In this document: piece after piece, positions 1 to 25,152 of the stretch
Position numbering within the stretch: position 1 is the first letter of the stretch
Layout: each line of letters starts with the position of its first letter
Notes under the pieces: model-generated
The model's input: only the letters and a program-made list of their open reading frames with translations
What the model was told of the DNA's origin: nothing
Database searches by the model: none
Translations under genes and position numbers: made by a program
Origin: a virus
Direction: 5' to 3' (one strand)
IMG/VR virus record: IMGVR_UViG_3300009157_000043
Coordinates: 1 to 25,152 of that record
DNA: 25,152 nucleotides

Positions 1-3000
1 CAGAGGCACCACACCAACAAGGTCGCTGCCGGGGTTACCAAAGCCGATACACGGGCGCTCAACAAAGCCGACGATCTGAACATGGTGGCGGCAGGGAACC
101 TGGGCAAAGTGCTGCGGGAGGCTCGGGAAGCCGGGTTGCTGGATGATGCGCTGTGGAAGCAGGGCGACCTCGGCGACGAATTCAGCCCTGAGATGGCCCG
201 CATGATGGAAGAGAGCGAGTCGTTCAAGAGGCAGATCGGAGACCTGACCAAGCTGCGGGAATTGGCTTCTCAGCCTGATGAGACTGTGGCCCGGTCGATC
301 AATTTCCTGGGGAACGGGCTGCTCAACGATGTTTACACGGTGCGCCGCCATGCTGAGAAGCTGCTCGGGGACACCGACCAGAGCGTGGACGATGTGGCCG
401 AACTGATCAGGGTGCTACGTCGGTCTGACGGTGACCAGCTACTGGCGAGGGGTGCCCATGCCGTCAAGCCGGAGATACCTGCTGACCGCCTCCAGGCCCT
501 GCTCACCGGCAAGGGGCAGGCTGATCTGGTGGAGTCCATTGTGGCTGCCAAGACGATGCGGGAAGTCCATGCCATTTTCGGGCCGACTGTGGAAATGCAG
601 GGGCGGATACCGCCACCACTGCTGAAGGCCCTGGCTGATGCCACCAGCCGTGCTGAAGTGGCGGACATCTTCATGCGGATGGCAGCCGGACAATTCATCC
701 TGCCCCAGCGGATAGGGCTGCTCGGGAAGTCAGCCATTGCCGGGAACCTGGGCACCATTGGTGGGGCCAGCGTGGGTGCCTTCGCTGGGGGAGCGGAACA
801 GGTGGAGGCTGGGGGGAATTTCGGGGATGTGCTGGGCGGTGCCTTCACAGGGGCTGTGCTGGGCACGGTGCTGGGCAGTGGGCTGGGGTCCACTGTGGGC
901 TACGCCATCGGCAACACCACCCGCAAGATCGAAGATGTGGCCGATGCGATGGACCTGATGCTGTCGGGGACTCGCTCCACTACCTCGTCGCTGCTTCGGG
1001 CCAGAGGGGTGGATATGGGGAGGGCGCAGGCAGGGCTGGGCGTCCCCCAGCAGCTTGCCTATGGCCTGGGCCACTCAGCGTTGGGCCGGAGGCTGGCCCG
1101 CAACGCTGGGACCCGGATGAACCTGAACGACCCGACCGACATCTACTACAAGCTGACCGACTACGCCCGTTCCCTGGGCATGACCTCCGATGAGGCCATC
1201 ACGGTGCTGGTCAAGAAAACCACCCGGGACCACTACCTCAAATCGGGCAAGGTGAAGAAGGTCACCGACACCGTGGAGCAGAAGATCGTCCGCTCCCAGT
1301 ACGCCGACGAGTTTGAGTATCAGCAGGCCATCGACCTGGCGAAAGGCGAGGGCTACCAGGTGGACACCGTGAAGAGCATGGATGATGCGCTTCGGGGTGT
1401 GGCCGAGATGTCTCCCAACAACCCGGCCCGGGCCTGGGTGGTGTTGGAGCAGTTCTTCTCTGTGGCCCAAGCCAACCTGTTGTCCCGTGGCCTGCCTCCC
1501 GAGTATGCCAGGGCGCTCACCGACTTCGCCAAGCAAGGCCAGGATGAGTTCCTCGGTACTACCGGGGCGATGGGGCAGGCGTCGAACCACATGCAGGTGG
1601 TGGTCAATGACCGGGTTACCAGTCTGAAGAAAGGTGCTTTGACCGAGGCAGAAACCTGGTCGGGGCATATCAACCTGCCACCCCCGGAGAAGGTGACCCG
1701 GGCGGTCAACCAGTTGGACAGGGCTGGGCGCTACACCCAGCTAATCACCGGAGCCGGGGTCCTCGGCCAGGTGAACCGGAACCTGCGCCGGGTGGCTGGT
1801 GGTGGGGATTGGATGAAGGTCACTCCAGAACTGGAGAGGAATGTGGCGGTGCGTACAGCCCGCAATCTGACCGCAACGTTGTGGGCACCTGTCATCCTTC
1901 TCGGTCGCCCGCTTGCGTTCCTCTCCAGGGTTCTCGGCGAGGACCAGGCCCGGATGACAGCATCAGGTCTGGACTCCATGTTCCATCACCCTTGGAACTA
2001 CACGACCGCCATCCTTGCCAACTGGAAGATGTTTCAGAATCAGGGGATGCTGCGTGGTGTTGCTGCTCGGTCGATCATCCCCGACAACATCCTCAAGGCA
2101 GGCAAGGTTGACGCTGACGTGTTGGACAACATGCCTCACTGGACCATCTCCGAAGAGGCACGCCACAACCTGACTATCTACGACCGGAAGCAGGCCAAAG
2201 AGCAGCGTGCCTTCGGAGCCACCACCTGGGGCACCATTGACGAGACTCAGCCCAAGCATCTGGAAGGGTTGGCTACCGAGTTCAGGCAGTTGGTCACCGA
2301 CCCGATGACCCGCCACCTGGCTCGCTCCCAATCTGGGGATGCGGTGGAGGACACGCTCAACTGGCTGCTCAGTACCCCGCAGGGCAACCGGGTGATGACT
2401 GACTGGTCACGCCAGTTCGACACTCCTGCTGAGGCTGCCGAATTCATGGCGAAGGACAATCTCAGGGCTTTCCTCCAGGACCAGCATGCACGGCTTCACC
2501 TCAAGACGGGCGGTGACTGGATATTCAAGCTGGGCAATGCCGTCACCGATTCCTCCGGCCAAGCCCTCGACCCGACCACTGTGATCGCTCGGGGCTATGA
2601 CCGGCTGGACGACGGCTATGTCATCACCCGTACCGGGGATGAGGACCTGATGGAGATAGTGGGGTCCGGCCAGCTACGAAACGTGAAGCTGGTTGATGAG
2701 GACGGCAACGAGTTCATCCAAGAGTCGCTGCGTATCCGTGACCATCTCACTGAGGAAAAGTGGCGGCTCATCAAGGATGAGCTAAGGGCCAAGAAAACCA
2801 GGTGGGACAAGGCTCGTCGTGCTGACCCTGGCTACGAGGGGCACCGCTTCCCGCCTGTGGTGAAGGGCACCAAGTTCGACCCGGATGCTCGGGAGATGAA
2901 GGGCATTGTCGGAGTGTGGGATGACGCCATCGACCGCTTCTACGACTGGGCCTTGGGCAAGCCGACCCGTTGGTTCTCACGCCAGCCGGTCATGGGCCAG

Positions 3001-5208
3001 CACTACTGGGAGCGCATCGGGATGCTCTACCCGGGCATGACCGATGAGATGCAGGCTGTCTACCGGGGTATCGCTCAGAAGGAAAAGACCTGGAAGCAGG
3101 TCCGCCAGATCGCTGATGTCTACGACGAGGCCGGAGCGGGAGCGGTTCGGACCCTGGACAACATCCAGGTGATAGATGTCAACGCCAAAGCCTTCGCTGT
3201 GGAGCGGACTCGGGACATCCTCTTTGACCTTCACCGCCAGCGCAACTTCGTGGATGGGATGCGGGTCATGTTCCCCTTCATGGGTCCCTTCGTGGAAGCC
3301 TTGGAAGCGTGGGGCCGAGTGTTCCGGGAGAACCCGGTCTACGTGTGGCGCAGGGGCACTCAGATGGTGGACCACCTGTGGAACACCTCGGACATCGGGG
3401 ACACAGTGACACCCGACCCGTTCAACACCGGCTGGTTCTACACCGACAAGGAAACCGGCGAGGAACGCTTCAACTATCCGATCATCGGAGACATGCTGCC
3501 CAAGATGTTCGATGCCTCCATCCCCGAGGGTGGAGCTACACCTGCTCTCGGGGGTAGGGCACGGGGCCTCAACGTGATGTTTGGCTCAGAGGACATGACC
3601 CAGGGCACTTCTCCTGAGTTTGCCGGATTCCCCATCTCAGCGATCAACCCTGGGGTGGGAGCCTTGTTCCAGATGGCAGGCACTTCCCTGGTTCGGGACC
3701 CGGAAGCCAGGACCAGCGAGATATTCAAGTGGGCCTTCCCCTATGGCACCCCGGACAATGTGTTCGCCCTGCTCCCCTACAACCTGCGCAAGTTCTCCGA
3801 GGGTTTCCTGCCCGGGACCGAGAACGACCTGCAACGGAACGTCATGGATCAGTTCGGGCGCATGGTCAGCGGTGGGGAGATAGGCACGGGCAACAAGTAC
3901 GCCTTCGACGTTGGCACCCCGGGTGGGGTGGAGAAGGCGATGGAGGAAGCCCAGTCTCGGGCTATTGCCCACAATCGGTTTGAGGGGTTCATGCGCACCC
4001 TGCTGCCGACCACGATCACACCCGAGGTGATGGTGGACCTGCCCAAAAAGGTGCCCGGGTTCAACCCGGAATACTTCGTGACCATTGAGGCGCTCGGCCA
4101 GTTCGCCCGTGACCTGACCACGGAGAAGGGGGCGCAGTGGTTCAACACCCCGGATGGCTACCGGATGAGTACCGAAGGGGACTACGAGATAGCCACCGAA
4201 TACATGAACTCCATCTTTGGCACCGACATGTTCAGCGCCGAGTTGCTCTCCCTGCCTCTCACTGACCGGGCCTACCCCAGGTCATACACCGAGAGCGGGT
4301 TGCTGTGGGTCCACGACCATCCTGATGTCATCCAGACCTGGCAGTCCTCGGGTTCGTTGCTCATGCCTGACTATGCCGGTATCAACCAGGAGGAAGAGAT
4401 GGGCGGGGAGCCTTACTCCTGGGAGGCTTTCGATGCTGCTGTGGACCGGGGTGACGCCACCTTCTTCACCCATGATGAGCAGATCGTGGAGGTGGAGTCC
4501 CGGCTGCTGAAGATGCGCAACCGTCAGATTGACGTGGAGGCCACCAAGATTTACGGGCATCCTGATTTTCTCAAGGGTGAGGAACACACCGATATACGCA
4601 ATCAGAGGGAAGCCTATGTTGCCAACGCCAAGCAGGTGGCCCTGGGTATTTTTGAGAAGGGGAAGATCAACGAGGCCCAGCAAACCAAGGTGTTCAATGA
4701 GCTTCTGCTGTGGGGGCAGCACAACTGGGAGCAGCACAATCTGACCCCGGAGGAACTGCGTACCGTGGAGGCTGTGTCCTGGTACCTGGGTGTCAGGACT
4801 CAGGCCCTGGGGATTCTCCAGCCAACTGGTACCACCAAGCTCAGTAATGTCGGCTCATCTGACGAAGAGAAGGCGATGGTGTTGGCAGTAAAAGCGGACC
4901 TTCAGAACATCGTTGCCATGCAGTTGGACCATGCTGCCAAGCGGGGCGCTGACATGGGCAACTTCGTCTACATCTACGAGACCTACCTGAAGCCTGAACT
5001 GACCGAGGATGATGAGAACTCGGACTTCGACCCGCTGCAACTGCTTGCTGAGGTGCGAGCCAAGGACGACAATCTCAGCCCGGAAGAGATAGAGGAATGG
5101 GGTAGCCCTCCTGATCGAAATTCGATCAGCAGTGGTGGTGGCTCATTCTCGTTGGCAACACAGCCCAGTAGCCAGTTTGGTGAAGAAGAGGTGACGTATG
5201 GCCCGTGA
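1..5208 (+). CDS. Very large putative virion-internal (ejection-type) protein, 5' partial
   Basis: The frame is open from base 1, so the gene starts left of the window. The first internal ATG is at 82, but the 27 codons before it are also coding-like, giving at least 1735 residues. I do not recognise a catalytic domain. Codons at about 733-912 encode a Gly/Ala-rich hydrophobic stretch with repeated small-xxx-small spacing (for example GGAFTGAVLGTVLGSGLG), which could insert in a membrane. A second hydrophobic patch lies near 1870-1935. The rest is mostly charged and helical-looking, and the C-terminus is acidic with a Ser/Gly linker. It sits upstream of the scaffold and capsid genes and directly before a transglycosylase-type gene. 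By analogy with podovirus internal virion proteins, I infer that it is ejected with the DNA. A tape-measure or polyvalent enzyme role is possible. One 17-bp palindrome lies in its 3' end. Confidence 0.6.
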   Translation, partial: QRHHTNKVAAGVTKADTRALNKADDLNMVAAGNLGKVLREAREAGLLDDALWKQGDLGDEFSPEMARMMEESESFKRQIGDLTKLRELASQPDETVARSINFLGNGLLNDVYTVRRHAEKLLGDTDQSVDDVAELIRVLRRSDGDQLLARGAHAVKPEIPADRLQALLTGKGQADLVESIVAAKTMREVHAIFGPTVEMQGRIPPPLLKALADATSRAEVADIFMRMAAGQFILPQRIGLLGKSAIAGNLGTIGGASVGAFAGGAEQVEAGGNFGDVLGGAFTGAVLGTVLGSGLGSTVGYAIGNTTRKIEDVADAMDLMLSGTRSTTSSLLRARGVDMGRAQAGLGVPQQLAYGLGHSALGRRLARNAGTRMNLNDPTDIYYKLTDYARSLGMTSDEAITVLVKKTTRDHYLKSGKVKKVTDTVEQKIVRSQYADEFEYQQAIDLAKGEGYQVDTVKSMDDALRGVAEMSPNNPARAWVVLEQFFSVAQANLLSRGLPPEYARALTDFAKQGQDEFLGTTGAMGQASNHMQVVVNDRVTSLKKGALTEAETWSGHINLPPPEKVTRAVNQLDRAGRYTQLITGAGVLGQVNRNLRRVAGGGDWMKVTPELERNVAVRTARNLTATLWAPVILLGRPLAFLSRVLGEDQARMTASGLDSMFHHPWNYTTAILANWKMFQNQGMLRGVAARSIIPDNILKAGKVDADVLDNMPHWTISEEARHNLTIYDRKQAKEQRAFGATTWGTIDETQPKHLEGLATEFRQLVTDPMTRHLARSQSGDAVEDTLNWLLSTPQGNRVMTDWSRQFDTPAEAAEFMAKDNLRAFLQDQHARLHLKTGGDWIFKLGNAVTDSSGQALDPTTVIARGYDRLDDGYVITRTGDEDLMEIVGSGQLRNVKLVDEDGNEFIQESLRIRDHLTEEKWRLIKDELRAKKTRWDKARRADPGYEGHRFPPVVKGTKFDPDAREMKGIVGVWDDAIDRFYDWALGKPTRWFSRQPVMGQHYWERIGMLYPGMTDEMQAVYRGIAQKEKTWKQVRQIADVYDEAGAGAVRTLDNIQVIDVNAKAFAVERTRDILFDLHRQRNFVDGMRVMFPFMGPFVEALEAWGRVFRENPVYVWRRGTQMVDHLWNTSDIGDTVTPDPFNTGWFYTDKETGEERFNYPIIGDMLPKMFDASIPEGGATPALGGRARGLNVMFGSEDMTQGTSPEFAGFPISAINPGVGALFQMAGTSLVRDPEARTSEIFKWAFPYGTPDNVFALLPYNLRKFSEGFLPGTENDLQRNVMDQFGRMVSGGEIGTGNKYAFDVGTPGGVEKAMEEAQSRAIAHNRFEGFMRTLLPTTITPEVMVDLPKKVPGFNPEYFVTIEALGQFARDLTTEKGAQWFNTPDGYRMSTEGDYEIATEYMNSIFGTDMFSAELLSLPLTDRAYPRSYTESGLLWVHDHPDVIQTWQSSGSLLMPDYAGINQEEEMGGEPYSWEAFDAAVDRGDATFFTHDEQIVEVESRLLKMRNRQIDVEATKIYGHPDFLKGEEHTDIRNQREAYVANAKQVALGIFEKGKINEAQQTKVFNELLLWGQHNWEQHNLTPEELRTVEAVSWYLGVRTQALGILQPTGTTKLSNVGSSDEEKAMVLAVKADLQNIVAMQLDHAAKRGADMGNFVYIYETYLKPELTEDDENSDFDPLQLLAEVRAKDDNLSPEEIEEWGSPPDRNSISSGGGSFSLATQPSSQFGEEEVTYGP
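5112..5128 (+). repeat. 17-bp dispersed palindrome, copy 1
   Basis: TGATCGAAATTCGATCA, with 8-bp perfect arms around a single central A. It lies in the last 100 nt of the very large virion gene, where it encodes Asp-Arg-Asn-Ser-Ile. It is 86 nt upstream of the next start codon. Four other copies occur in this window. Confidence 0.9.
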
Positions 5209-10387: not shown

Positions 10388-11440
10388 GTGGCCGCATACG
10401 GCACAACCAACCAACCCGCTGCTGCTGTCCCCACGGGCGGCGTAGCCGGGTTCGGTACCTGGAACCTTCCCAACTTCGTGGGCGAGCTTTTTCGCCTCTC
10501 CCCCCTGGAAACGCCGCTCCTGACAATGATCGGCGGACTCAGCGGGGGAGTGTCACTGAGCGCACCCCACTTCGTGTGGCAGGACACACTGCACAGGGCA
10601 CCGGCCCTCACTCACGCCTCTAGGGGCCTGATTGAAGGTGACGATGCTGTGTTCAGTGCGCAGTCCCGCACCGAGCGTCAGAACGTCACCGAGATTTTCC
10701 AATACGGTGTCGAACTGACGTACACCAAGCAGGCCGCAACAGGGCTGCTCGGTACCTCGGGTGCCACACCCACTATCGGGGCCGAGAACATCCTCGGTAC
10801 CCAGCCGGTGCAGAACGAGATGGCGTGGCAGCTTCAGATCAAGCTGGAGCAGGCCGCTCTCGACTGCGAGATTGCCTTCCTCACCGGCACCTTCGCCTAC
10901 CCGTCTGACGGTACGGCGAGGCGCACACAGGGCATCATCGGTGCCATCACCGACATCGCCCTGGATGCTGACCTGGCTGCCAACTTCGGCGTCACGGCCC
11001 CTGCCCCGGTGACAGGTTCCGTCCTGTTGGAGCAGTTGGGCCAGAGCCTCTACGACAACGGTTCCCCGCAAAGGAACATGGTTGTCATGGTGTCCTCGGC
11101 AGCGAAGAGGCTCATCTCAGCCGCCTACACCAACAGCAACGCCCAGCCCCGAGACCGGAGCGTGTTCGGCGTCAATGTGACGGATGTCATCACCAACTTC
11201 GGGACGTTCCCGATTGTGTTGAACCGTCACCTGGCAGCTACCACGGTCCTCGCCTTGGAGTTGAGCGTGATGGCTCCTGCCTTCCTGCCCATCCCGGGCA
11301 AGGGGCATTTCTTCCTGGAGCCTCTCGCCAAGTCCGGGTCGTATGACCGCCAGCAACTGTACGGAGAAATCGGTCTCCGCTACGGGCCACAGGGGTGGCA
11401 CGCCAAGGTCATCGACTTCGACGGTGGAGCCACTGTCTGA
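10388..11440 (+). CDS. Major capsid protein, SU10-like (DUF5309) type
   Basis: The GTG start has GGAGGA 8-9 nt upstream. The 350-aa product resembles the SU10-like major capsid family, an HK97-fold group. It has an N-terminal Ala/Pro/Gly region, then NFVGELFRLSPLETPLLTMI, then a GG.S...FVWQDTLHRA segment. An acidic loop with V..IFQYGVELTYTKQA and a QLQIKLEQAALDCEIAFLTG helix follow. The last third contains the usual TDVITNFGTFPIVLNR and a C-terminal DRQQLYGEIGLRYGPQGWHAKVID segment. It forms the capsid shell. It follows the scaffold gene and is followed by a strong hairpin, which is common after highly expressed capsid genes. This is one of the most secure calls in the window. Confidence 0.88.
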   Translation: MAAYGTTNQPAAAVPTGGVAGFGTWNLPNFVGELFRLSPLETPLLTMIGGLSGGVSLSAPHFVWQDTLHRAPALTHASRGLIEGDDAVFSAQSRTERQNVTEIFQYGVELTYTKQAATGLLGTSGATPTIGAENILGTQPVQNEMAWQLQIKLEQAALDCEIAFLTGTFAYPSDGTARRTQGIIGAITDIALDADLAANFGVTAPAPVTGSVLLEQLGQSLYDNGSPQRNMVVMVSSAAKRLISAAYTNSNAQPRDRSVFGVNVTDVITNFGTFPIVLNRHLAATTVLALELSVMAPAFLPIPGKGHFFLEPLAKSGSYDRQQLYGEIGLRYGPQGWHAKVIDFDGGATV

Positions 11441-12565: not shown

Positions 12566-14155
12566 ATGGCCTTCCCCACCGTAGCCAGTCTCCAAGAGAC
12601 CACGGTGGCGTCGATGTCCACGACGCACAACATCGCTCATGGGGCGACGGTCAACGCCGGGGACCTGCTGGTGATGATCTTCGTCGGGTCCCAGGTGGGA
12701 GCCGACGAGACCTACACCATCACCGACCCGTCCGGCTGGACACTGCTTGCCGAGAACCAATACAACGACGGCTCGGGCAACAACCGGCAGAACACCGGCG
12801 TCTACTACAAGGTGGCCTCGGGTTCTGAGGGTGGCACCACGGTCAACGTGGCTACCAGTGCCTCGGTGTCTGCCGCAGCCCAGGTCTACCGGATTACTGC
12901 TGGCACCCACAACAGTGCCGTGGAGATTGGCACCTTCTCCGAGGTGGAGGATGGGGCCAACCCGAACCCACCATCCCTGACCCCTTCGTGGGGTTCGGCG
13001 GACACGCTGTGGCTTGCGGTCGCCACCTGGGAGGACTCGGACTTTTTCGCCTCTGCTGCTCCCGCCTCCTACACCAACCTGACCACGGAGATTGCCGACT
13101 CCACTGAGGATGCGGTCATCTCGTCGGCTCGCCGGGAGAACGCCACCGCTACCGAGGACCCAGGCACCTTCACCGCTGCTGCCGAGAAGCATCAGGCTTT
13201 CGTCATCGCCATCGAACCAGCAGGTGGTGGTGGCGCAGGGTCGATGGACGGGTCGATACTGCTGGAGGGCACCGACGACTACCTGATTCTTGAAGGTGGC
13301 ACCGATGACGACCCCATCTTGCAGGAGGGTTTCACCTGGCCTGCTGCTGCCAGTGGTACTGCTGCCGTCACCCTGGATGCCTTTGTCTCTGCTGCATCGG
13401 GAACGTTCACCCCTCCACCGATAACCGGTACCTCTGCGGTGACGTTGGCGGACTTTGTATCCGCTGCCAGCGGTACGTTCATAGCCCCGATCACGGGTAC
13501 CAGTGCGGTCACCCTGGGAGATTTCCTCTCCACTGCTGCCGGTACTTTCACTCCACCGCCCATCACTGGCACCTCGGCTGTCACTCTTGGGGATTTCGTA
13601 TCTGCTGCCAGCGGTACCTACACCCTGCCCCCTATCACCGGTACGGCTGCGGTCACTCTCGGTGAATTCCTCTCCACAGCCACAGGAATCCACGCTGCTG
13701 GCCCGGAAGGTACGGCGGCCGTCACCCTCGGGGACTTCATCAGCGATGCGTCAGGGACGTTCACACCGGCCCCTGCCACCGGTACAGCGGACATCACCCT
13801 GGGGGATTTCATTTCGGACGGTGTTGGGACCTTCTCCCCTCCGGCCATCACAGGTACAGCAGCAGTCACCCTGGATGACTTTGTTACCAGTGCTGATGGG
13901 GCTTTCTCGTTCCCGATCACGGGCACTGCTGACGTGGTGCTTGGAGATTTTGCAGCAGTCGGAGTGGGGGCCTTCTACACCACCAACGTCCCCCAGGGTG
14001 GTGTGGTGTCAGGGGGTAGCGGAGCTACCGACACCAGTGGAGGTACCTTGCGACAATCAGACGTTGCCGGAACCAGTGGTGCCAGTAAATTGAGACCATC
14101 TCCGGGGTCTCCCCGGGTGGGTGGTGGTGGTGGTCAACCGAGCGTGGAGGAATGA
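12566..14155 (+). CDS. Repeat-containing putative fibre or decoration protein, 529 aa
   Basis: The ATG follows GAGGGGGGCCT. The first ~220 residues form a beta-rich globular domain, beginning MAFPTVASLQ and ending near FVIAIEPAGGGG. A short acidic linker (GSILLEGTDDYLILEGG, then DDDPILQEG) leads to nine tandem units of 23-24 residues (consensus GTxAVTLGDFxSxASGTFTPPPIT, residues 264-471). The tail is Gly/Ser/Thr-rich with a final basic-acidic end. No signal peptide or membrane helix is present. The repeats look like a beta-strand-turn ladder, suited to an elongated stalk. Its location among virion genes suggests an external fibre or a capsid-surface protein. The opposite strand is open over a long stretch here, but only as a compositional shadow. 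Confidence 0.6.
   Translation: MAFPTVASLQETTVASMSTTHNIAHGATVNAGDLLVMIFVGSQVGADETYTITDPSGWTLLAENQYNDGSGNNRQNTGVYYKVASGSEGGTTVNVATSASVSAAAQVYRITAGTHNSAVEIGTFSEVEDGANPNPPSLTPSWGSADTLWLAVATWEDSDFFASAAPASYTNLTTEIADSTEDAVISSARRENATATEDPGTFTAAAEKHQAFVIAIEPAGGGGAGSMDGSILLEGTDDYLILEGGTDDDPILQEGFTWPAAASGTAAVTLDAFVSAASGTFTPPPITGTSAVTLADFVSAASGTFIAPITGTSAVTLGDFLSTAAGTFTPPPITGTSAVTLGDFVSAASGTYTLPPITGTAAVTLGEFLSTATGIHAAGPEGTAAVTLGDFISDASGTFTPAPATGTADITLGDFISDGVGTFSPPAITGTAAVTLDDFVTSADGAFSFPITGTADVVLGDFAAVGVGAFYTTNVPQGGVVSGGSGATDTSGGTLRQSDVAGTSGASKLRPSPGSPRVGGGGGQPSVEE
13355..13978 (+). repeat. Nine tandem ~69/72-bp repeats within the 529-aa gene
   Basis: Units start GGT-AC-GC... and encode GT(A/S)(A/D)(V/I)(T/V)L(G/D/A)(D/E/A)F. 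The first eight are 24, 23, 24, 24, 23, 24, 24 and 23 codons long. The ninth is partial and begins at 13922. Amino-acid identity between units is high at the GTxAVTL and DF positions and low in the Pro/Thr turn. Nucleotide spelling differs widely between units, so they are not a recent slippage expansion. Confidence 0.9.
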
Positions 14156-20063: not shown

Positions 20064-20077
20064 TCGAAATTCGATCA
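20061..20077. repeat. 17-bp dispersed palindrome, copy 3, at convergent stops
   Basis: TGATCGAAATTCGATCA. The first three bases are the stop (TGA) of the holin on the + strand, and the last three (TCA) are the stop (TGA) of the endolysin on the - strand. The palindrome therefore spans the junction of convergent genes with 11 bases between the two stop codons. It may serve as a bidirectional boundary or a binding site; there is no T-tract. Confidence 0.9.
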
Positions 20078-20770
20078 GGCTCCGGCCTTGCGCACTGCGG
20101 CGTTGACGATTCCCTCGGTGACCGCTTCCTCGTAGAACTGGACCCACTTGACATGCTCAGGGTCACCAAGCAGGGCCACCATCTCGGCAGCGAGGGCGAC
20201 CCGGTTGGTCTTGCCCGGGTAGACAATCCACTTGCCCCCCTCCCCTCGGGTGGTGCATACCACCTCCACCTGTTGGGGGCTGAGGCGTGAAGCGAACTGG
20301 GCGGGGGTCATGTCATGGTCTCCTATGGGTGGGGCTGGTTCCGGGTTTATCGGCCAGGGTTTGGTGGATTCGGCTATCACAGTAGAGACTACTGACAGGT
20401 GGCCGTGGTCCTTGTGCCCGTTGGGTCCGTCATATGCCTGCCACATCCAGGCAGGGCGTCCCGCCGAGTCCACGTAGCCCTTGAAGATGCGGACATCGTG
20501 GATGAAATACTTGAGCCTCTCATCCTTGGCATGACGTAGCCGTTCCCCGACATCATCAACGAAACCGGGGCTGGATTCCTCAAAGTCGATAGCCCGGACA
20601 ATCCCATCCTCATCCGGGTTGTGGTCGGAGACCCGGTTGGAGTGGGCAGTGTCTCCCACGGTGCCATCCTTGGAGTAGCTGTCGTCGTTGCCCCGTAGCG
20701 CCATGATCTGGTCACCGAATGTGTTGATGGAGAAGGCGGTCCTCCAGCCTGTGCCCTTGTATCTGAACAT
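20075..20770 (-). CDS. Endolysin, M15-like zinc peptidase
   Basis: The start ATG overlaps the upstream stop as TGATG. Residues ~20-130 look like a phage M15-type (D-Ala-D-Ala carboxypeptidase/L-Ala-D-Glu peptidase-like) domain. They contain TAHSNRVSDHNPD (His50), then VRAIDFEE (Asp62), then NGHKDHGHLSV (His122 and His124). These fit a zinc site of one His, one Asp and a final His. After a Pro-rich linker (PWPINPEPAPP), the last ~80 residues form a separate module starting MTPAQFASRLSPQQVE. It could be a wall-binding part, but I do not recognise it. The protein has no signal peptide, so it needs the holin. The gene converges on the holin gene. I am confident of a wall peptidase, less of the exact bond cut. 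Confidence 0.75.
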   Translation of the reverse strand: MFRYKGTGWRTAFSINTFGDQIMALRGNDDSYSKDGTVGDTAHSNRVSDHNPDEDGIVRAIDFEESSPGFVDDVGERLRHAKDERLKYFIHDVRIFKGYVDSAGRPAWMWQAYDGPNGHKDHGHLSVVSTVIAESTKPWPINPEPAPPIGDHDMTPAQFASRLSPQQVEVVCTTRGEGGKWIVYPGKTNRVALAAEMVALLGDPEHVKWVQFYEEAVTEGIVNAAVRKAGA

Positions 20771-22673: not shown

Positions 22674-22997
22674 CTATCGTTTGAGTGTGGCGATGATTTC
22701 ATCCAGGTCGTCAGGTCTCCACACGTAGACCTCGACCCCGGGCACGGTCATCAGCAGGGATAGCCATATCTCCTGTGTCGCCGATACCCGTCCCCGCTTC
22801 GATTTGAGTTCGGCAAAGATGAGGCGTTCGCCTCGTACCAGCACCAGGTCGGGGAAGCCTGTCTCCCCGCTGATCGCTGTTATCCACTTGCCTGCTCCTG
22901 GCTGGTATCCGGCACGCTGGTGGTGGCGGTGCCATCCGTATATCCGGGCCACCTCCAAGACCTTCTCTTGAAGGATTGCCTCCGGTCCTCTACTCAC
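22674..22997 (-). CDS. VRR-NUC family nuclease
   Basis: The GTG start overlaps the previous stop (GTGA). The 107-aa product has the compact PD-(D/E)xK fold pattern of stand-alone VRR-NUC proteins. It has an N-terminal helix with Glu11, a GFPDL motif (Asp50), and then a strand ending AELKSK (Glu63, Lys65). Next come a GRVSATQEIWLSLLMTV helix and a final strand-helix (VEVYVWRPDD). These match the catalytic core Asp/Glu-x-Lys and the following Gln-containing helix. Family members cut or trim DNA structures and are common in phage genomes. The substrate is unknown here. The gene lies between small unknown genes, co-directional with a DEDDh exonuclease gene upstream, which suggests DNA processing. 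Confidence 0.85.
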   Translation of the reverse strand: MSRGPEAILQEKVLEVARIYGWHRHHQRAGYQPGAGKWITAISGETGFPDLVLVRGERLIFAELKSKRGRVSATQEIWLSLLMTVPGVEVYVWRPDDLDEIIATLKR

Positions 22998-23573: not shown

Positions 23574-23765
23574 CTATCTCTTGATCGAATTTCGATCAGG
23601 GTTTTTCTTGCACTCCCCGCACATGTCGATGAGCTTGGCCCTACCCACCAGCCGCTGGTTGGTCTTGCCCATCTCCCCGCAGTTGCGGCATCGCACGGTC
23701 GCCATCCCGTAGTGCTTGTACGGGTACAGCTTGTTGTCGCTTGGCTTCGGCTTCTCTCCTATCAA
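23574..23765 (-). CDS. Small zinc-ribbon protein, 63 aa
   Basis: I choose the TTG at 23765, which overlaps the upstream stop as TTGA and has GGAAGAG 5 nt upstream. An ATG at 23828 would overlap the exonuclease gene by 67 nt, and an ATG at 23705 would lose the Lys/Pro-rich start. The product begins MIGEKPKPSDNKLYPYKHYG. It then has CRNC (Cys26, Cys29) and CGEC (Cys49, Cys52) separated by 19 residues, the layout of a Cys4 zinc ribbon. Such small ribbons are frequent in phages, and the partner is unknown. The gene ends with codons (Asp-Arg-Asn-Ser-Ile) spelled by the 17-bp palindrome at 23582. The start choice is moderately supported. Confidence 0.6.
   Translation of the reverse strand: MIGEKPKPSDNKLYPYKHYGMATVRCRNCGEMGKTNQRLVGRAKLIDMCGECKKNPDRNSIKR
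23582..23598 (-). repeat. 17-bp dispersed palindrome, copy 5
   Basis: Reads TGATCGAATTTCGATCA on + and TGATCGAAATTCGATCA on the - strand, the direction of transcription. It encodes Asp-Arg-Asn-Ser-Ile at the extreme 3' end of the zinc-ribbon gene and lies 19 nt upstream of the 189-aa gene start. Confidence 0.9.
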
Positions 23766-24427
23766 AACGGCTCTTCCTTCTCGGGTGGCCTGCGCTCCAT
23801 CACTGCAAGGTAGATGGCTCGTGCCCATCGTGCATCACCAATAGCTGTGTGCTTGGCGAAGGCAGGGTCGTCCCGGTCCACGCCCACTGCCTCGGCCAGG
23901 TGTGTGCTATCCCAGGGTAGGACTAGCTCATACTGGCTCTCACCGATAAGGAACCCCACGGCCAGGGCTTCCACGTCGATGAGGTGGTAGTGCCAGTTGG
24001 GGGGCAGGTACAGCCCACCCGTGTTGACACCCGGCCCCATCTGCATGCCGTAATAGTCGGCCTGTTCGATGATGCGCCTGATACGTGTCTCATCGAACGA
24101 CGGCACAGCCCCCGCCCAATGCAGTCCCCAGGTCAGCTTGGTGAACATCTTCCCGAACGCATCGTGGGGCACGGCACGGGTCGAGTCGTACCTGTCGAGG
24201 AACCCACCTATCTGCAATGCCTTCGGGTCAGCACTGGTCATGCTGTTGATCGGCAACTGCCACTCATGTTCCTCCCCGTTGGGCAAGATGAGCGCCACCT
24301 CCCACACCTCATGGTGGTTCATCAGGCCAGTGGTTTCACAGTCCACGAAGAACACACCGGGTGTGGCCTTGGGTTGTTCCACCACTCGGGCTTCTGCCTG
24401 GTCCCGGATGGGTATGCCCTCACGCAT
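23762..24427 (-). CDS. DEDDh-type 3'-5' exonuclease
   Basis: The ATG overlaps the upstream stop in the 8-nt sequence ATGCGTGA. The 221-aa product shows the exonuclease motifs in order. FVDCETTG gives Asp29 and Glu31 (ExoI), AVPSFDETRI gives Asp112 (ExoII), and KHTAIGDARWA gives His193 and Asp198 (ExoIII). This is the DEDDh layout of the DNA polymerase III epsilon/RNase T group. The reaction is 3'-to-5' hydrolysis of DNA or RNA. The ExoII motif is AxxSFD rather than the common NxxFD, a small change. It lacks a polymerase domain, so it is a stand-alone exonuclease. It is followed by a zinc-ribbon gene, and a VRR-NUC gene lies nearby, which suggests a DNA-processing group. The substrate cannot be told from the sequence. 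Confidence 0.85.
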   Translation of the reverse strand: MREGIPIRDQAEARVVEQPKATPGVFFVDCETTGLMNHHEVWEVALILPNGEEHEWQLPINSMTSADPKALQIGGFLDRYDSTRAVPHDAFGKMFTKLTWGLHWAGAVPSFDETRIRRIIEQADYYGMQMGPGVNTGGLYLPPNWHYHLIDVEALAVGFLIGESQYELVLPWDSTHLAEAVGVDRDDPAFAKHTAIGDARWARAIYLAVMERRPPEKEEPF

Positions 24428-25152
24428 CTTCGGCCTCCACCTTGTCGGGCTTCATGCCCCGTGCGAACAGGAGTACCAGTCCTCCCGCTGCCAGGGTGAT
24501 GAAGGCGATGGTGTCGAGGTGGTCACCTATCCCGGTGAAGGGCAGTTCACCGTCCCCCGCTGGCGTGGTTGGTGCCCCTGGGTCGGGCACCAGGGTGGGC
24601 AATGGGGTCACAGTGGATGGGGTGTCCGGTGGGACCACACTGCATGGCTCTATCAGCACTCGGGCTGAGTCGGGCACCGGGAAGTGGTTGCCGTCAGCAA
24701 TGGGCACTATGTCGATGAGGGTGGGTTCGGTCACAAGCACGCCATAGGCACCCGGATACTCAAAGCGATAGAACGCCTCAAAGTCTCCGACTACTACCAG
24801 TTCCACTGCGTCGATGGCATACCCGAAGTCCACGAACACGATGCCGCACTCCACACTCCAACTCCACTCAGTGGGTTTCGGTGCAGGGAGGGTCGTTGTC
24901 GTGGTCGTGACCAGAGAACCTGATGAAGGCACCGTGGTAGTGCTTGATACGGATGTGGTGGTCTGGTTCGCCGTGGTGGTGGTGGACCCTGCGGTCGTCG
25001 TTGTCTCTTCGGGCAGTGTCGTCGTCGGTGCTGTCGAAGAGGTGGTCGGTGAGGTGGTCGAGGTAGTCGAAGTAGTCACCGAGGTGGAAGTTGTCGCCTC
25101 GCATTCCTCATCGTCCTTGTCGTAGTAGTCGCCGTCGTGACTGTCGTGCCCA
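24420..25152 (-). CDS. LPFTG-anchored surface protein with Thr-rich stalk, 5' partial
   Basis: The frame is open to the right window edge. A GTG at 25079 could be mistaken for a start, but the 24 codons before it read as protein, including acidic GDYYDKDDEECEA, so the gene begins beyond 25152 (at least 243 residues here). A long Thr/Ser/Pro stalk (such as TTTSTTSTTSPTTSS) is followed by a beta-like domain with two Cys (SVECG and IEPCS). A Pro-rich linker leads to LPFTG (24531-24545), a hydrophobic helix and a charged tail (ARGMKPDKVEAEDA). That is the pattern of a sortase-anchored Gram-positive wall protein, although the tail after the helix is less basic than usual. The stalk is typical of actinobacterial surface proteins. 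The gene overlaps the exonuclease gene by 8 nt. Binding target and role are unknown. Confidence 0.7.
   Translation of the reverse strand, partial: GHDSHDGDYYDKDDEECEATTSTSVTTSTTSTTSPTTSSTAPTTTLPEETTTTAGSTTTTANQTTTSVSSTTTVPSSGSLVTTTTTTLPAPKPTEWSWSVECGIVFVDFGYAIDAVELVVVGDFEAFYRFEYPGAYGVLVTEPTLIDIVPIADGNHFPVPDSARVLIEPCSVVPPDTPSTVTPLPTLVPDPGAPTTPAGDGELPFTGIGDHLDTIAFITLAAGGLVLLFARGMKPDKVEAEDA

Follow-up and report, generated by a model that had tools for sequence, protein, structure and literature searches.

A candidate phage-encoded sortase substrate: an LPFTG stalk protein coupled to an exonuclease gene in a viral fragment of actinophage type

The window analysed here, the whole stretch of 25,152 bases, is an entire IMG/VR virus record and probably a fragment. 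At its right end the minus strand carries the reading frame of an LPFTG stalk protein (24420-25151), of which 243 codons are seen without an internal stop and which is truncated on its 5' side by the contig end. The translated parts follow one another in the order of an acidic piece with one cysteine, a Thr-rich stalk, a two-cysteine domain, a Thr/Pro-rich linker, the LPFTG motif, a helix and a tail. The Thr/Ser/Pro-rich stalk (24876-25094, minus strand; about residues 20-92, as read from the translation) reaches a combined T/P/S content of up to 82% within 40 residues. It is preceded by a third cysteine, Cys-17, and followed by a compact core domain (24636-24869, minus strand; about residues 95-172) that contains Cys-102 and Cys-170 and is predicted to be all-beta. 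The LPFTG sortase-type motif occupies residues 203-207 of 243 (24531-24545, minus strand), and the hydrophobic stretch directly behind it, TIAFITLAAGGLVLLFA (24462-24512, minus strand; about residues 214-230), passes a hydropathy filter. The layout given in the initial annotation (a Thr-rich stalk, a two-Cys beta domain, LPFTG and a helix) was borne out by the 243-codon frame and the all-beta prediction. The C-terminal tail, RGMKPDKVEAEDA, holds three basic residues (R, K and K), none of them adjacent, together with four acidic ones; a published screen for sortase substrates requires two consecutive basic residues in the tail (PMC4155245). Read in this frame, the earliest possible start is the GTG at 25079, which lies within the stalk and has no signal peptide after it, so the true start of the gene, and with it any signal peptide, must be past the contig end.

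GC content at codon positions 1, 2 and 3 of the core-domain region is 0.68, 0.46 and 0.70, respectively, resembling that of the neighbouring phage genes, to which the frame is also similar in codon preference. Open reading frames combining an LPXTG motif with a helix were absent from 400 first-order Markov windows of the same dinucleotide composition as the window, and the LPFTG layout is not a product of chance. Two such frames were present in 1.04 Mb of phage and prophage loci that had been fetched via other genes and not chosen for LPXTG: one, in L044, has a Thr/Ser/Pro-rich stalk, and the other, in L042, appears to be non-coding. The latter match (L042:6214-6564) was rejected because its frame probably does not code for a protein. 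The Gram_pos_anchor profile PF00746 does not match the window protein; it also misses the proteins of G001, G003, G007, G008 and G011, whose sorting signals are apparently complete. No sortase gene was found within the 25,152-base window.

The end of the LPFTG frame overlaps by 8 nt (ATGCGTGA, 24420-24427) with the start of a gene for a DEDDh/DnaQ-like 3'-5' exonuclease (23762-24427, minus strand; phrog_192, E 8.5e-19). The catalytic residues Asp-29, Glu-31, Asp-112, His-193 and Asp-198 of this exonuclease are invariant in an alignment of eight sequences. Its Shine-Dalgarno-like site, GGAGG (24434-24438, minus strand), is located within the LPFTG frame, 6 nt before the exonuclease ATG. Relatives of the exonuclease mostly start a few residues ahead of the first catalytic motif and translation from the window ATG is longer by about 20 residues, so that a later GTG start is possible and the 8-nt overlap could be an annotation effect; the best ribosome-binding site for the gene is the one that serves the window ATG. 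Gordonia and Mycobacterium phages encode relatives whose annotation is DnaQ-like DNA polymerase III subunit. In bacterial genomes, all 17 confirmed relatives (17/17, among the genomes that matched) are in Actinomycetota, a phylum in which sortases are common. A DEDDh exonuclease resembling that of the window is also encoded some 0.7 kb behind a phage gene at L011:8898-9368 (plus strand).

Further genes mark the contig as viral. The leftward gene row that holds the LPFTG and exonuclease genes also includes a VRR-NUC nuclease (22674-22997, minus strand; PF08774, E 2.7e-7), and an SU10-type major capsid protein that marks the contig as phage is encoded at 10388-11440 on the plus strand (PF17236, E 3.7e-62). 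This capsid protein is 40-42% identical to those of Mycobacterium, Propionibacterium and Bifidobacterium phages. Judged from its genes, the window is a viral fragment of actinophage type. The 8-nt overlap, the placement of the Shine-Dalgarno-like site, the phrog_192 exonuclease and the SU10-type capsid gene together support the earlier assignment of the LPFTG gene to a phage operon rather than to a stray host fragment. When closer relatives of the window were sought, the capsid protein led to one (41% identical), and neither a 189-aa protein nor a 1708-aa protein led to any. With no closer phage relative, the LPFTG gene could not be extended through one. A very long protein is encoded at 1-5208 on the plus strand; it comprises at least 1735 aa, its left end is cut off, it has no PHROG match, and the patterns used for it turned up no relative among the viral contigs. 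A 529-aa protein encoded at 12566-14155 (plus strand) contains several copies of a short repeat, TGTAAVTLGDF..SAASGTFTPPP, and has no Pfam or PHROG match.

The core domain was searched by sequence and by structure. The initial annotation had singled it out for comparison with phage and host collections, and this comparison yielded no homologue: none was found in the viral contigs or genome contigs and none in the INPHARED phages at E up to 10, and the PDB sequence search gave nothing below E 0.25. AlphaFold2 modelling of 24600-24866 alone produced an all-beta fold of seven strands at moderate confidence (mean pLDDT 67, pTM 0.53), and modelling of the whole C-terminal piece gave a poor fold (pLDDT 39). 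Foldseek with the core model returned no significant match. VIA-align returned middling rows only (Z 4.4 or less, none significant), and collagen-binding and Ig-like domains are among these weak rows.

Viral contigs were scanned with DNA patterns for ELPFTG and for a Thr run combined with LPXTG, and each match was then examined as to its frame, helix, signal peptide and neighbouring genes. Among the matches listed, LPXTG proteins encoded amid clear phage genes occur in at least six unrelated viral contigs. In G003, an LPFTG protein (L074:7774-8517, minus strand) with a signal peptide, a Thr stalk and a helix-hairpin-helix domain (PF12836) has its gene immediately behind that of an M15 endolysin, the two overlapping by 4 nt. 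In G002, which carries terminase, portal and capsid genes, the gene for a protein made up of a signal peptide, a stalk and LPFTG (L072:7687-8205) overlaps by 4 nt with a gene for a DUF5658 membrane protein; the same gene row includes a DnaQ-type exonuclease (phrog_403), an amidase endolysin and a second secreted Thr-stalk protein. This second protein (L072:9009-10019, minus strand; 336 aa) has no LPXTG and is encoded between the DnaQ-type exonuclease and the LPFTG gene. G008 encodes an LPSTG protein (L086:7987-8646) between integrase and repressor, its gene overlapping by 4 nt with a TM2 gene. The surrounding region, L086:4857-10164, is a temperate-phage lysogeny module of integrase, LPSTG protein coupled to the TM2 membrane protein, and repressor. 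Two further cases are an LPRTG protein (L114:1249-1896), whose gene has a 4-nt overlap with a dNMP kinase gene, and a protein with an Excalibur domain and LPVTG (L117:2285-2833), whose gene precedes those for terminase, portal and capsid; in the latter frame a signal peptide was not recognised. The LPXTG matches in L100, L120, L187, G001 and G009 were not counted as phage, being at prophage edges or having no clear phage neighbours.

The remaining case, G007, combines a substrate candidate with a sortase. An LPTTG protein (L085:6417-7211) is encoded in this record (IMGVR_UViG_3300050503_000044), and 37 nt downstream of its gene lies one for a membrane-anchored class E sortase (L085:7248-7997, plus strand). 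The sortase scores 164.9 bits against NF033747 (cut-off 160) and matches PF04203 at E 2e-31; it keeps the expected His, Cys and Arg regions, with the motifs AGHREHG and TLTTC read from the sequence. G007 is a 104-kb tailed-phage record with 16 tRNAs, a terminase gene, a portal protein (phrog_776, E 1e-107) and a major head protein (phrog_777, E 3e-133). A 2045-aa protein of this phage (L228:107-6244, plus strand) matches, in its C-terminal part, a PHROG annotated as ADP-ribosyltransferase. G007 was the only one of the 11 records tested to have a sortase gene; in the 10 others, anchoring, if any, must therefore use a host sortase. Every INPHARED match to the G007 sortase falls in an unannotated record of 1.9-22 kb that may represent host contamination, and the isolated phages of that collection yielded no clear sortase of this type.

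The outer domains of the phage LPXTG proteins show no mutual similarity, and only short C-terminal anchor pieces align; INPHARED contained no relatives of the LPXTG proteins of G003, G007 or G008. Because the cases are independent and their outer domains non-homologous, sortase-type display has the look of a rare trait that recurs among phages, and not of the product of a stray host gene. These independent cases in other viral contigs also strengthen the initial annotation's suggestion that sortase-type proteins can be genuine phage genes.

Taken as a whole, the window gene is best explained as a moron-type accessory gene of the phage for a secreted, surface-changing protein anchored by the host's sortase, a reading to which we assign a probability of about 55%. 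A sortase of the actinobacterial host would cleave the exported protein at LPFTG and link it to peptidoglycan. As long as the phage resides or replicates in the cell, a Thr-rich and possibly glycosylated stalk would then hold the small beta domain out from the wall. The surface of the infected cell would thereby be changed to the benefit of the phage, chiefly by hindering the adsorption or DNA entry of competing phages; phages commonly shield the host cell from competitors at its surface. The parts of this reading differ in strength. The frame, the motif, the order of the parts, the phage context and the coupling to the exonuclease gene are observed, and that the gene encodes a sortase substrate belonging to the phage is probable. 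That the purpose is a surface change directed chiefly against competing phages is a tentative proposal. It is equally speculative to see in sortase-dependent display a convergent strategy of Actinomycetota phages, in which different domains, once together with the phage's own class E sortase, would re-decorate the wall and exclude competitors.

Thr-stalk LPXTG proteins are typical of hosts, and the LPFTG gene is the contig's last feature with no phage gene seen beyond it, as would be expected if a host gene for a surface protein stood at the edge of a prophage or if the assembly were chimeric. Such an origin is improbable, however, given the 8-nt overlap with the phage exonuclease gene, the Shine-Dalgarno-like site inside the LPFTG frame, a composition matching that of the phage genes, and the phage genes that flank LPXTG genes of this type on both sides in other phages. 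In addition, no copy of the gene in a host chromosome was found among 84,980 genomes at the sensitivity of the search, which fits the initial view that this is not a stray host fragment. Nor does it seem at all likely that the product is a membrane-anchored stalk protein left uncleaved by sortase, with LPFTG incidental. The phage protein encoded at L011:8898-9368 does have a signal peptide, a Thr/Pro stalk and a C-terminal helix without LPXTG, and the window protein's tail, with acidic and basic residues mixed, falls short of the ideal; but LPFTG sits exactly at the position of a sorting signal, an arrangement found in none of the 400 random windows, and LPXTG occupies the same place in six other phage proteins, one of them accompanied by its own sortase gene.

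Other readings accept display and differ in its purpose. The chief rival to exclusion is that the stalk protein makes the infected cell or lysogen adhere, clump or bind matrix differently, as a form of lysogenic conversion that would serve host fitness or the dispersal of the phage. Adhesins are often built as a stalk bearing a small beta domain, collagen-binding and Ig-like domains appear among the weak VIA-align rows (none significant, Z at most 4.4), and the LPSTG gene of G008 sits between integrase and repressor, a region that often holds prophage-expressed genes. Yet the fold matches are too weak for use, and the window fragment shows no integrase or repressor, its LPFTG gene being placed among nuclease genes and not in a lysogeny module; we consider this reading rather unlikely. 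A role in lysis or release, for instance by binding or remodelling the wall or by stopping progeny virions from sticking to debris, has a low probability. It draws on the G003 gene directly behind an endolysin gene with a 4-nt overlap, and on the leftward row that the window gene shares with 20075-20770, a lysin candidate by position only. That candidate is, however, about 3.6 kb and several genes away from the LPFTG gene, other phage LPXTG genes are in replication, lysogeny or pre-terminase positions, and sortase anchoring, being tied to wall synthesis, would fit poorly with late lysis.

If true, wall decoration of this kind would add a surface-based route to phage competition or lysogenic conversion, and the recurrence in unrelated viral genomes, once with an own sortase, suggests that some phages re-decorate the host surface. 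In the open-access papers searched, we found no report of a phage-encoded sortase substrate that decorates the Gram-positive wall covalently. Proteins of this type are familiar from bacteria; as a phage gene, none turned up in those papers, and relatives of the cases tested were likewise missing from the isolated phages of INPHARED, an absence from these collections that does not prove novelty. The best-known cases in which phages alter the surface of their hosts involve O-antigen enzymes, membrane proteins and lipoproteins. The superinfection-exclusion proteins reviewed in PMC11436027 and in the introduction of PMC4737114 are, like the window protein, encoded by phages, and they are located at the cell surface, as is predicted for the window protein; unlike it, they are mostly membrane proteins or receptor modifiers, and sortase and LPXTG are not mentioned in the review PMC11436027. 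CwpV, a wall protein of Clostridioides difficile, stops phage infection after adsorption, an effect that its authors found reminiscent of superinfection exclusion (PMC4737114), and an exclusion task of that sort would be well matched by a small binding domain on a stalk anchored in the wall. CwpV differs from the window gene in being host-encoded and phase-variable, and the word sortase is absent from PMC4737114. GamR, the LPXTG receptor of Bacillus anthracis phage gamma (PMC9863714), is also an LPXTG wall protein at the phage-host interface, but it is a host-encoded receptor and not a phage gene. The LPXTG sortase substrates of Gram-positive bacteria are alike in having a stalk, a folded domain, LPXTG, a hydrophobic helix and some basic residues at the C-terminus, which in the window protein are not adjacent and stand among acidic ones; in contrast to them, the window gene lies in a phage operon, is coupled to an exonuclease gene, has its start and any signal peptide past the contig end, gives no PF00746 score and encodes a core without detected relatives. 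The Streptomyces class E sortases SrtE1 and SrtE2 have LAXTG substrates, the motif that class E enzymes are reported to prefer (PMC5148588); the G007 enzyme also belongs to class E, but it is encoded in a phage genome and is accompanied by an LPTTG motif instead of LAXTG.
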